Below are positions 25,404-28,776 of a DNA stretch of 36,176 nt, in pieces. The notes beneath the pieces were generated by a model. It was not told the DNA's origin and searched no databases. It saw nothing but the letters and a program-made list of their open reading frames with translations. The DNA is from Treponema sp. (GTDB lineage: Bacteria; Spirochaetota; Spirochaetia; Treponematales; Breznakiellaceae). The position numbers were made by a program, and so were the translations under genes. Location: NCBI GenBank assembly GCA_031279975.1, contig JAITHL010000169.1:1-36176 (forward strand), given 5' to 3'. Numbering within the stretch: the first letter of the stretch is position 1; each line of letters opens with the position of its first letter.

Positions 25404-25501
25404 GGGGATATGATACCCGATAATTGGATAATGCGCAAGCCCCCTAGGGTAGGTGAATAATTTTATATTTTTCCCCGTTTTCCACGGAAAAAGGGGAATA
25501 T
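25404..25501. other. AT-rich gap with imperfect hairpin
   Basis: Contains CCCCGTTTTCC paired, with one mismatch, with GGAAAAAGGGG (about 25475-25498), just left of the terminal-repeat element. No gene is visible. Confidence 0.5.
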
Positions 25502-25678
25502 CCCACTGTCAACAACTTAAGGGGGGACCGGGGGGCCTTTCGGCCCCCCGGCGGGGGCGTTACGGGGGCAGAGCCCCCGTTGAGGGGGTAGGGCGCAACG
25601 AAGCGCGCCCGTAGGGGTCGTACCCCAGAGGGGTACGCGACTTCCCCTTTCCTCATTTCTTAAGTTGTTGACAGTGGG
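25502..25678. mobile_element. 177-bp non-autonomous element with terminal inverted repeats
   Basis: Bounded by perfect 20-bp inverted repeats, CCCACTGTCAACAACTTAAG at 25502-25521 and its complement at 25659-25678. Inside are perfect hairpins: 25528-25551 (CCGGGGGGCC, loop TTTC), 25562-25580 (ACGGGGGC, loop AGA) and 25620-25636 (GTACCCC, loop AGA). No credible gene. A 19/20 match to the terminal repeat recurs at 28491-28510 beside a transposase-like remnant, so this looks like a MITE derived from that insertion sequence. No clear target-site duplication was identified at the outer edges. Confidence 0.7.
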
Positions 25679-25711
25679 GAACGCCCCCTTCCTTGCGGCA
25701 GCCTCTGGGCG

Positions 25712-28459
25712 CTATTTTTCCGTAAGGTTGTACACCCCGTCCCAGGAATCAGGCGGCGGGTTGGCCAAGAAGCCCCCGCACCGTTTCCGGTACAACCCGG
25801 CGGGTTTGTCCTCCCCGGCAACGGCCAAGGCTTCCTGAAACCCCTCCGCGGCCCGTTTCCAGTCCCGCCGCTCAAAGAACTCCAGCGCCCCGTGAAACAC
25901 CTCCACCAGCCGCTTTTGTCCGGCCCCGGCGCGTTCCCCGGTTTCAAGCAGCTCATAGAGCCGTACCGGTTCGCTGATGCCCACCACGCGGACCCGGTCG
26001 AGTTTTCTTACCAAGAGGCCGTTCCCGGCCTCCCGTACCGTATCTTCCGAGGCGAGTATCCAGGTCCCGTACTGTTTGTTCACCCCCTCAAGGCGCGCGG
26101 CAAGGTTTACCGCGTTTCCCATGATCGTATAGTTCATCTTGTTTTCCGTGCCCATGTTGCCGGCGACCATGAGGCCGGTGTTGACGCCAATACGGGTTAA
26201 CAGCGGGGCCGGGGACAGCTTTTCCCGCAGGACGCGGCGGTTGATATCCTTTTCGATCCGCTTCATGGCAAGCGCGGACCTACAGGCCCGCAGGGCGTGA
26301 TCCCCCAGTTCCAAGGGCGCGCCGAAGAACGCGATAACCGCGTCCCCTTCAAATTTATCGATGGTCCCCTTCTCGGCAAGAAGGGCGTCGCTCATGGCGG
26401 TAAGGTAGCGGTTCAAGAGGTCCACCAGGTCTTCCGGATCAAGCCGCTCGGCTATGCCGGAAAAGCCCTGGACATCAGTAAAGAGCGCGGTCATGCGGCG
26501 CTCGGTCCCCCCCAGCTGGAGCCGGGAGGGATCGGCGATAATTTCCCGCACCACCTCGCCGGATACATAGGTGGAAAAGGCTTTCCGGAGAAAGCTCTTT
26601 TCCCGTTCCGAACCGGTGTGGGAGATGATTTCCCGGACAACCACGGCGCTGTTCAAGGCCAGCAAGGTTCCCAGGGGCCCGAAAAAAATCCCTGTATACC
26701 GGAACAGCAACAGGGCCCCCAAGAGTATGCACGCCGCCGCCGTAAAACCCGCCGCCGTCCGGGGCAGGGGGGCAAGGGCCGCGGTGGCCGCGAAAAAAAG
26801 CGGCAGGAGGATGAGGGGAAGGAGCAGCCGCCACCAGGGGCTGAGGGGGCTAATGAAGGATTCGGAAAGTATTGTGTCCAGCACCGCCGCGTGGGTGCCC
26901 ACATTCATATATTCCCCCCAAAAGGGGGTGGCGGCTATGTCGGTGGTTCCCGTATCGACCCTGCCCAGGATGCAAAACCGGTCCCGGACATCTGCGGCAA
27001 TATGGGCGCTTATCCTTTCGTATTCCGCAAGATCGAGGGCCAGGTAGCCCGTCAGCTTGCGGATATACTCCGCCTCTTCTTGAAAGAGGGGGAAATCCTC
27101 CGGGAACGCTTCCTGGAGGCGCGGCAGGACGACGTGTATCCTGGCCGCGGGATCAAAGTCCGTAAGGCGGCGCAGCAGGTCCCGGCTTTGGGCGCGGTAC
27201 TCCACATAGGCGGCAAAGGCCGCGTCCAGCGCCTCCCGCTCAGGCGGCGGGCCTTCCAGCGCCAAGGCCGCGGCTCTGGACGCCCCTATCGCGGCATAGA
27301 GGCCGGCCAGTTCAGCCGCGTCAAGGGAAAGGCGGGCAAGGGCCGGATCGAACTGGGCAAAGAGGGCGGCGTCCACCGAATACAGGGCTTGGCTGTACTC
27401 TTTGAGTTCCGCCTCAATATCCTCAAGCCGGGCAAACCCGGCCAAGGAAAGATGCCGGTAACTGTGCTGGTAGCGATCCGGGGGCCAGTCAAGCAGCATA
27501 CGGCCCTGGCGGTCCAGGGGGATGGCGATGTCCTTGACCCCGCCCTGGGGAGGACGGGCGTTTTTGAGGATCAGCCGCCGCTTTTCCAATACCAGTTCCG
27601 GCCCGCCCAGATAGTTGAGCAGCGGGGCAAAGGCAAGCTGGGGATACCAATGATCCCGCACCTTCTGAACCAGGTATATCCGCCGCCGTATGCCGTCCCG
27701 GTCGATCTCTATGTTGGTAAACCCGGCCCCTTGGGCGGTCAGGGCAAAGGCGGGCAGGGCGGGCAGTATATCCCTAAACCTTCCCGCGGGCGTTCCTTCG
27801 CGGGCCTGGACCGGGCGGGAAAACCGCTCCTCCGCCAGGGCCCGGCGCCCGGCCTGTTCCCCGGACAAGGCTGCGGAACGGAGGTTTAAAGTAACCCAGC
27901 TCTTCCCGAACAGGGCGGAAGCCCGCACCAGGTAGCGGTCGTTATCCTGAGCTATGCCCCGGGCCTTGGCATAGAGGCGGTCCCGCTCGCCCCCGATAAG
28001 GCCGGAAAGCGCCCCTGCATAGAAGTCCAGATCGGGGCTCCGTATTCTGCCGGACTTCAGGGCCGCGAAAATATCCGACGCGGCGGCGTTAATTTCCCCA
28101 AAGCTCTGGTTAAAATCAGAACGCAAGCCCTGCCGCGCATATACGCTGTCCACCCCCTCCGGCCCCCGGTCGATGAACTCAATATCGAAGAGGGCGAGTT
28201 TCGCTCCGTATTCCTTGAGCCGCAAAAGGCAGTCCGCGATAATGGACCGGGGCCAAGGAAAAACGCCGTTATGCGCTATGGCGTCGTCGTCAACCTCAAG
28301 GAACACCACCGTATCGATACGGTCCCGGTCCTTCCTGAACCGGAGAAAAAAATCGTAAATCCGCCCGTCGTCCGCGGAACCGAGCGGGACCGTAAGGCCG
28401 CAGAGGGCGAAAAAAACCGCCGACGAAGCCCCTAAAACCGCGCTTTTCCATCCTTTCAT
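25712..28459 (-). CDS. CHASE2-domain class III adenylate cyclase
   Basis: 915 aa, makes cyclic AMP in response to an extracytoplasmic signal. A membrane segment at about 7-27 is followed by a CHASE2 sensor (about 30-545; FLEVDDDAIAHNGVFPWPRS and GAKLALFDIEFIDRGPEG), then about three membrane segments (550-620) and the catalytic domain (about 650-845). Metal-binding Asp662 (FTDVQGFS) and Asp706 (FEGDAV), purine-selecting Lys702 and Thr778 (the Lys/Thr pair of the CyaC/soluble-cyclase type), and transition-state Asn785 and Arg789 (VNLAAR) are all present, so it should be active. The C-terminal ~70 residues are TPR-like (FHGALEFFERRDWKRAAEGF). GGGATAGG precedes the ATG. Confidence 0.92.
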   Translation of the reverse strand: MKGWKSAVLGASSAVFFALCGLTVPLGSADDGRIYDFFLRFRKDRDRIDTVVFLEVDDDAIAHNGVFPWPRSIIADCLLRLKEYGAKLALFDIEFIDRGPEGVDSVYARQGLRSDFNQSFGEINAAASDIFAALKSGRIRSPDLDFYAGALSGLIGGERDRLYAKARGIAQDNDRYLVRASALFGKSWVTLNLRSAALSGEQAGRRALAEERFSRPVQAREGTPAGRFRDILPALPAFALTAQGAGFTNIEIDRDGIRRRIYLVQKVRDHWYPQLAFAPLLNYLGGPELVLEKRRLILKNARPPQGGVKDIAIPLDRQGRMLLDWPPDRYQHSYRHLSLAGFARLEDIEAELKEYSQALYSVDAALFAQFDPALARLSLDAAELAGLYAAIGASRAAALALEGPPPEREALDAAFAAYVEYRAQSRDLLRRLTDFDPAARIHVVLPRLQEAFPEDFPLFQEEAEYIRKLTGYLALDLAEYERISAHIAADVRDRFCILGRVDTGTTDIAATPFWGEYMNVGTHAAVLDTILSESFISPLSPWWRLLLPLILLPLFFAATAALAPLPRTAAGFTAAACILLGALLLFRYTGIFFGPLGTLLALNSAVVVREIISHTGSEREKSFLRKAFSTYVSGEVVREIIADPSRLQLGGTERRMTALFTDVQGFSGIAERLDPEDLVDLLNRYLTAMSDALLAEKGTIDKFEGDAVIAFFGAPLELGDHALRACRSALAMKRIEKDINRRVLREKLSPAPLLTRIGVNTGLMVAGNMGTENKMNYTIMGNAVNLAARLEGVNKQYGTWILASEDTVREAGNGLLVRKLDRVRVVGISEPVRLYELLETGERAGAGQKRLVEVFHGALEFFERRDWKRAAEGFQEALAVAGEDKPAGLYRKRCGGFLANPPPDSWDGVYNLTEK

Positions 28460-28490
28460 CGCCTATCCCTTCCAAAACGGGGGGAAGTCT

Positions 28491-28510
28491 CCCGCTGTCA
28501 ACAACTTAAG
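28491..28510 (-). mobile_element. Solitary insertion-sequence end
   Basis: CCCGCTGTCAACAACTTAAG differs by one base from the 20-bp terminal repeats of the element at 25502-25678. It lies 10 bases past the stop codon of the transposase-like fragment at 28521-28676, where an IS terminal repeat would be expected. Confidence 0.6.
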
Positions 28511-28520
28511 GATTTCCCCC

Positions 28521-28676
28521 TCAACAATTCGATTTATGGTTGTGGTGAAACCGCGTTTGCCGGGAGCTTTCTTTCCGGGGAACCTCCCGGTCAGGGCGCA
28601 CCGGCACTACCCGCCGTTTGATCTCCCCCGCCAGTTCCCTCATCAGCCGCGCCCGCACTCCTCCCCCTTTCGCCAT
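28521..28676 (-). pseudogene. Probable transposase C-terminal remnant
   Basis: 51 residues ending in TGA: MAKGGGVRARLMRELAGEIK, then RRVVPVRPDREVPRKESSRQ and TRFHHNHKSNC. The R.V.P.RP.R..PRK pattern followed by a basic/His tail resembles the end of IS4-type transposases (from memory, unverified). It has no ribosome site, an in-frame TAA lies just upstream, and the rest of the transposase is missing. The terminal-repeat copy downstream supports an IS origin. Confidence 0.4.
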
Positions 28677-28700
28677 CACTACTGCTTTTTAAAAATGGGT

Positions 28701-28776
28701 GTTTCGCCGGACTTTAGCCCGCGCCCGCGGGCCGGGAAATCGCAAAGGAACCTCTGAAACAACCGGTTTTTAGAGG
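28701..28776 (+). repeat. Composite hairpin module, copy 2 (AACCG loop)
   Basis: The opening 22 bases (core GCCGGACTTTAGCCC, 28701-28722) match 1263-1284 with one difference; a CGCCCGCGGGC palindrome takes the place of the small hairpin of copy 1. The second hairpin at 28751-28776 has arm CCTCTGAAAC, loop AACCG and a GTTTTTAGAGG arm with minor mismatches. The same order of elements and a trailing ATGTA are seen in both copies. Confidence 0.6.

Follow-up and report, generated by a model that had tools for sequence, protein, structure and literature searches.

The window analysed here, a stretch of 36,176 nucleotides from Treponema sp. (Breznakiellaceae; GenBank assembly GCA_031279975.1, contig JAITHL010000169.1), contains at positions 25504–25676 a short element that is very probably a miniature inverted-repeat transposable element (MITE) that an IS4-like insertion sequence (IS) of 1.35–1.38 kb with IS231-like ends mobilises in trans through its transposase, while the nearby segment 28493–28682 represents the truncated 3′ end of such an IS. 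Directly observed are ends common to the element and the ISs, 10-bp duplications at copies elsewhere, a target bias, autonomous relatives, a copy resembling an IS deletion, and nested insertions. The relevant features of the window, with coordinates and strand, are:

25494–25503, no strand: left flanking 10-mer gggaatatcc, which may be a decayed target duplication (7/10, from flank comparison)
25504–25676, no strand: MITE-like non-autonomous element, 173 bp (from the repeats and the duplication boundary of the family)
25504–25521, plus strand: left terminal inverted repeat, 18 bp, CACTGTCAACAACTTAAG (from sequence)
25522–25658, no strand: interior, 137 bp, GC-rich and palindromic (from folding and interior comparison)
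25659–25676, minus strand: right terminal inverted repeat, 18 bp (from sequence)
25677–25686, no strand: right flanking 10-mer gggaacgccc, which may be a decayed target duplication (7/10, from flank comparison)
28493–28510, plus strand: terminal repeat of the IS remnant, CGCTGTCAACAACTTAAG (from sequence)
28521–28682, minus strand: 3′-terminal part of a truncated IS4-like transposase gene, last ∼51 codons plus stop (from similarity to contig C51 and tblastn)

An initial annotation of this DNA described a 177-bp element bounded by perfect 20-bp inverted repeats. These repeats are present without mismatch at 25502–25521 (plus strand) and 25659–25678 (minus strand), and the non-coding stretch 25502–25678 holds no gene. 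The element proper spans 173 bp, with 2 bp trimmed from each side, since the target-duplication statistics of the family (seven perfect 10-bp duplications among 40 end pairs, see below) place its boundary at CACTGTC. The CC/GG just outside the 18-bp repeat belongs to the target and fits the preferred G...C target motif. The GC-rich hairpins of the initial annotation correspond to the palindromic interior, and both strands of the 177-bp stretch fold far better than shuffled sequences (z = −9.9 for the plus strand and −10.5 for the minus strand). Such a strong fold is expected of a palindromic element, and no functional conclusion is drawn from it. The element is too short for any transposase gene, and Rfam and tRNA scans of the window gave no match.

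The ends are abundant in the genome from which the window derives (G000; 2.62 Mb, 249 contigs, estimated 78% complete). A 16-bp end core, CTGTCAACAACTTAAG with C or G allowed at position 11, has three matches within the window at up to three mismatches (100 shuffles: mean 0.15, maximum 2). Across the genome it occurs in 46 exact copies and, at up to one mismatch, 135 times (66 forward, 69 reverse), compared to none for the reversed control; chance repeats are ruled out by this control and the window shuffles. BLAST with the whole element gave at least 94 matches in the genome (40 of 309 candidates were scored). Allowing up to 4 mismatches across 18 positions, the loci fetched contain 141 ends, from which 40 pairs spanning 93–434 bp were formed, many ends being partnerless under the pairing rules. 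A stricter pairing yielded 31 pairs; the 40-pair set permits more mismatches, and seven perfect duplications are found in both. Thirty-three of the 40 pairs lie outside heuristic open reading frames (ORFs) of at least 100 aa, though the coverage by such ORFs is ∼80%. Interior similarity to the window element (E≤1e-5) is detectable in 35 of the 40, including the element itself, and extends over at least 80% of the interior in 13. The exact 16-mer was also found in 12 stretches of viral contigs, presumably about as many as chance would give in a collection of that size.

Flank comparison points to insertion with a 10-bp target duplication. Perfect 10-bp duplications border 7 of the 40 pairs, compared to 0.077 expected from mismatched left and right flanks, and 10 pairs agree at 9/10 or better. 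No perfect flank match of exactly 5–8 or 11–13 bp was seen among the 40 pairs, and only one of 9 bp. Short elements (up to 450 bp) of other genera behave similarly, with perfect 10-bp duplications at 6 of 13 (L031, L032, L033, L116, L117 and L118; 0.17 expected). The outer flanks of the 141 ends are G-rich 10–11 bp out and end in C (G at −11, 0.73; G at −10, 0.72; C at −1, 0.78), which corresponds to a palindromic target.

Autonomous relatives with the same ends are present in genomes of the same family. Three ISs of 1347–1383 bp were found, two of which carry a 10/10 duplication:

G093, contig C188 (L107/L174, one element seen in both orientations): 1347 bp, 10/10 duplication
G100, contig C221 (L108): 1362 bp, 3/10 in the flanks
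G143, contig C48 (L109/L080): 1383 bp, slightly diverged ends, 10/10 duplication, open frame of 322 residues

Two further end pairs of 1169 and 1177 bp (L123 and L038) show 4/10 agreement in the flanks. Three transposase proteins were compared, P0001 (G093), P0002 (G100) and P0003 (G083, truncated where its contig begins). They match Pfam DDE_Tnp_1 (E = 6e-19, 3.1e-14 and 1e-20, respectively) and NCBIfam IS4_1 (NF033592; 150.5, 147.7 and 119.6 bits), all above the curated cut-off of 115. The YREK signature, Y-(2)-R-(3)-E-(6)-K, is present as YYKRWPIETKYNQLK in P0001, YYKRWPIETKYNQVK in P0002 and YNKRRGIETEYKTVK in P0003, and the acidic residues of P0001 and P0002 are spaced D-80-D-88-E. Stop-to-stop frames of 430 (L072) and 468 residues (L073, where the frame starts upstream of the IS end) span the conserved region, consistent with a single frame without frameshift.

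Within the assembled window genome, transposase matches are confined to contig C51, the window fragment and contig C31. The C51 copy has a left end with one mismatch, eight stops within the matched transposase stretch, and a lysine in place of the catalytic glutamate of the YREK motif; a Pfam search with two of its stop-free pieces returned no family. Whole or partial relatives of a C51 piece are found in 9 other genomes among 145 examined. Full-length ISs, for which the initial annotation proposed a search, are present in other genomes of the same family. The window assembly has yielded degraded pieces only, and therefore a live source is either unassembled or gone.

The initial annotation had also noted a 19/20 copy of the terminal repeat 10 bases from the stop of a transposase-like fragment. 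This third copy lies at 28491–28510 on the plus strand (CCCGCTGTC... compared to CCCACTGTC...), and the adjoining minus-strand frame ends in ...FHHNHKSNC, with its stop codon (28521–28523) 10 bases inside the repeat. The 51-residue fragment itself is uninformative in profile and structure searches: Pfam gave only a sub-threshold KH_TffA hit (0.031; 14.7 bits against a cut-off of 22.6), and PDB searches nothing better than E = 0.51. Its identity was settled through transposase relatives instead. It aligns over 54 aa with the C-termini of P0001, P0002 and P0003 at 51.9, 59.3 and 57.4% identity (E = 1.9e-13, 7.8e-16 and 5.1e-14), tblastn with the same proteins places the window match at 28524–28685, and FHHNHKSNC is exact in four of seven aligned transposases, the remaining three being off by one or two residues. 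In addition, window positions 28506–28682 share 88.7% identity over 177 bp with the degraded copy on C51. A non-transposase origin of the fragment is ruled out by the alignment to IS4-type C-termini, and, judged by sequence similarity, 28493–28682 is the truncated 3′ end of one IS with these ends. Neither of the outcomes that the initial annotation regarded as fatal, an absence of full-length ISs or a fragment of other origin, has occurred, and its proposed link between the non-autonomous element and an IS family is supported by the common ends; the window MITE shares the terminal repeats of the ISs, not their interior. A different repeat (28708–28776; 90% over 70 bp to C51, L049 616–685) adjoins the remnant and lies outside the IS.

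IS and MITE are linked directly by a copy on contig C31 (2666–2788, 123 bp), where two ends enclose an IS 3′ end with 94% identity over 103 bp to the window remnant. Its flanks match at 5/10, and it resembles a deletion product of the IS. A similar junction between IS and end, on one side only, is present at C169:2994. An origin of the window MITE itself by internal deletion was considered and rejected, as no IS interior is found inside it, whereas the C31 copy does contain one.

The window element has the hallmarks of a MITE, being short and multicopy, devoid of a transposase gene, and bounded by terminal inverted repeats that are common to an autonomous IS; target duplication is displayed by the family (7/40 perfect at 10 bp). 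Because the biochemistry of DDE/IS4 transposases is established, we infer that the transposase would bind the CACTGTCAACAA(C/G)TTAAG ends and would act by cut-and-paste, excising the element and inserting it into palindromic sites of the G-rich...C-rich type with duplication of 10 bp. The MITE would be mobilised in trans by the IS enzyme in the same manner.

Several observations weigh against this interpretation. The flanks of the window copy match at only 7/10, a level reached by 3.1% of mismatched flank pairs (≥7), and, a short GGACCGGG-like match and the ends aside, no IS sequence is seen in its interior. Thirty of the 40 pairs lack a 9/10 duplication, so that many of the copies are old, mispaired or products of recombination. 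Two of the 10 pairs of G083 are perfect, yet 5.6% of its mismatched pairs are perfect as well owing to a shared target motif, and this genome therefore adds little. The flanks of the G100 IS agree at only 3/10, and the G143 IS, with its open frame of only 322 residues, may be broken. No intact transposase was found in the window genome as assembled (estimated 78% complete). Finally, the initial annotation suggested looking for empty sites in relatives, and this gave no clean example. The window element is located 35 bp downstream of the stop codon of a gene for a CHASE2 adenylate/guanylate cyclase (25712–28459, minus strand), and the IS remnant begins 33 bp upstream of the start of that gene. 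In favour of a mobile element, the flanks fetched for 11 cyclase relatives (L209–L219) have no end at up to three mismatches; those of L209 contain two weak hits with four. Since these relatives (48–58% protein identity) belong to other genera, the result shows that related loci lack an end, which falls short of a clean orthologous empty site. The cyclase itself has six matches in its own genome at E≤1e-40, itself included, indicating an expanded signalling family.

Two other explanations were weighed. It is conceivable, but unlikely, that the window element was built by recombination of two older copies instead of a single insertion, a scenario that is compatible with its being a MITE. In its favour, the flanking 10-mers agree at only 7/10, the interior is modular across copies, and 17 of 140 outer flanks match MITE interior; however, both 18-bp repeats are perfect, and the observed 7/10 agreement falls in the 3.1% tail of mismatched pairs. 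The window copy may thus have arisen by an old insertion whose duplication has since decayed, or by recombination. We consider it highly improbable that the element is a palindrome of the REP (repetitive extragenic palindromic) or BIME (bacterial interspersed mosaic element) type, kept for an RNA or chromosome function such as a 3′-end hairpin or terminator, with the IS-like ends being secondary: the strong fold (z about −10), the mostly intergenic copies, the position 35 bp past the cyclase stop, and the 5 of 68 core-module copies in fetched loci that have no recognised end within 200 bp are in line with such a role, but the ends are common to ISs carrying a transposase, perfect 10-bp duplications are present, dissimilar interiors occur between the same ends in other genera, and 63 of the 68 core copies are near an end (a biased figure, since loci were picked for ends or element hits).

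The IS4 family, as delimited by De Palmenaer et al. (2008, PMC2266710), is defined by Y-(2)-R-(3)-E-(6)-K, D(60∼110)D(100∼150)E, a duplication of about one helix turn, and a single ORF. The ISs described here agree in the YREK signature, single frame, 10-bp duplication and first D-D spacer of 80, and differ in the D-E spacer, which at 88 is about 12 short of the range; in the annotated IS4 proteins L275, L276 and L277 it is about 108, 100 and 104. For the IS231 subgroup the same paper gives ends of the form CAT-------AA--TAA---, a size of 1450–5400 bp, a duplication of 10–12 bp, and a host range almost exclusively within the B. cereus group. Relative to this description, the YREK signature, 10-bp duplication and single open frame are shared, and CACTGTCAACAACTTAAG matches 7 of 8 conserved end positions (CA at 1–2, AA at 11–12, TAA at 15–17). 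On the other hand, the third base is C instead of T, the elements are smaller (1347, 1362 and 1383 bp), and the hosts are spirochaetes. By its NCBIfam IS4_1 match the transposase is IS4-like, with IS231-like ends; it is placed in no IS4 subgroup because base 3, element size and spacer differ from IS231.

The MITEs form a new family of a known kind, namely MITEs of an IS4-like IS with IS231-like ends. Mobile insertion cassettes (MICs) such as MIC231 consist of transposase-less DNA between IS231-type ends that is moved in trans, and they carry passenger genes; the window element differs from this general picture of MICs in being 173 bp long and without a known gene. MITEAba12 (PMC6382973), from another host, is likewise reported to be a short non-autonomous element derived from an IS. 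Among the titles listed in literature searches for MITEs and ISs in spirochaetes or in Treponema of termite guts, none names the present element.

Of 291 genomes examined in the order, 32 contain the 18-bp end without mismatch (C or G at position 13), and all 32 are among the 120 of the same family (0/171 in other families). With the 16-bp core at up to one mismatch, 52 of 145 same-family genomes are positive, G083 having the highest number (205 + 191 ends). A profile search of genome contigs with the transposase alignment recovered 22 loci, 17 of which are titled Treponema, Spirochaetaceae or Spirochaetia; we take these spirochaete records, from their isolate names, to be termite-gut metagenome-assembled genomes (MAGs). 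The other five come from other groups, at 27–38% identity. Ends of the general form CAATnTCAnnAACTTnAG are seen near IS4 transposases in a Clostridiales MAG, a Lachnospiraceae MAG and Desulfosarcina (L181, L193, L275), and an end motif of this form seems to be wider than spirochaetes.

The DNA between the ends varies by genus. Interiors of 13 elements from other genomes and of 8 of the 10 G083 pairs (excluding L169 and the second L159 row) were compared with the 40 from the window genome, and 19 of these 21 show no similarity at E≤1e-3; L120 matches over 19 bases at best. A single cluster with CAGATTACACAGATT-type repeats unites 17 of the 21 (G012, G022, G083, G093), and L116 stands alone. The latter (G093, C267, 463–615; 10/10 duplication) has an interior with GTCATTGCG...CGCAATGACG that matches no other interior compared and resembles a dispersed repeat of many unrelated bacteria. 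L032 (G002, C57, 1266–1518), from another genus, shares 97.9% identity over 97 bp with one of the interiors of the window genome and has a perfect 10-bp duplication, reflecting either recent transfer or a misbinned contig. The CAGATTACACAGATT pattern has 223 matches in five genomes; among 30 loci fetched, some of which are neighbouring hits in one repeat and not all independent, at least one end is found within 250 bp at 8/8 in G083, 6/9 in G012, 1/9 in G022, 0/2 in G093 and 0/2 in G000. The repeat occurs without ends and therefore may have been captured; alternatively, the end-less copies may be decayed MITEs. Contig C16 of G022 (L225, L233, L236) contains many short GTGTCTGACACC / GCGTCTGACGCC palindromes beside CAGATTACGCAGATT repeats without these ends, apparently another repeat system.

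Copies in the window genome also tend to lie within one another. The 60-bp outer flanks match MITE interior in 17 of 140 cases, compared to 1 of 129 controls taken 600 bp further out, and at one nested copy (C245:9206, 9-bp duplication) the two flanks, once joined, align at 83% identity with repeats that are uninterrupted in four other places, apart from short gaps close to the junction. Nesting into the same kind of repeat is thus common. A possible, though tentative, explanation is that the ends of this one IS4-like clade have repeatedly captured unrelated pre-existing dispersed repeats, genus by genus, making high-copy MITE families out of small palindromic repeats already present in each genome, and that the repeat captured in the window genome holds the preferred target, such that copies nest and diversify.

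The family is mildly unusual in its abundance, its differing interiors between genera and its self-nesting, and it leaves the understanding of transposition unchanged. It accounts for an abundant repeat class in one spirochaete family, the highest count being 396 ends in one genome of 3.3 Mb. The ends probably break assemblies, as 16 of the 100 G083 ends among the matches listed are found in the first 200 bp of a contig. The family also provides a concrete case of the ends of one IS clade surrounding different interiors in different genera.

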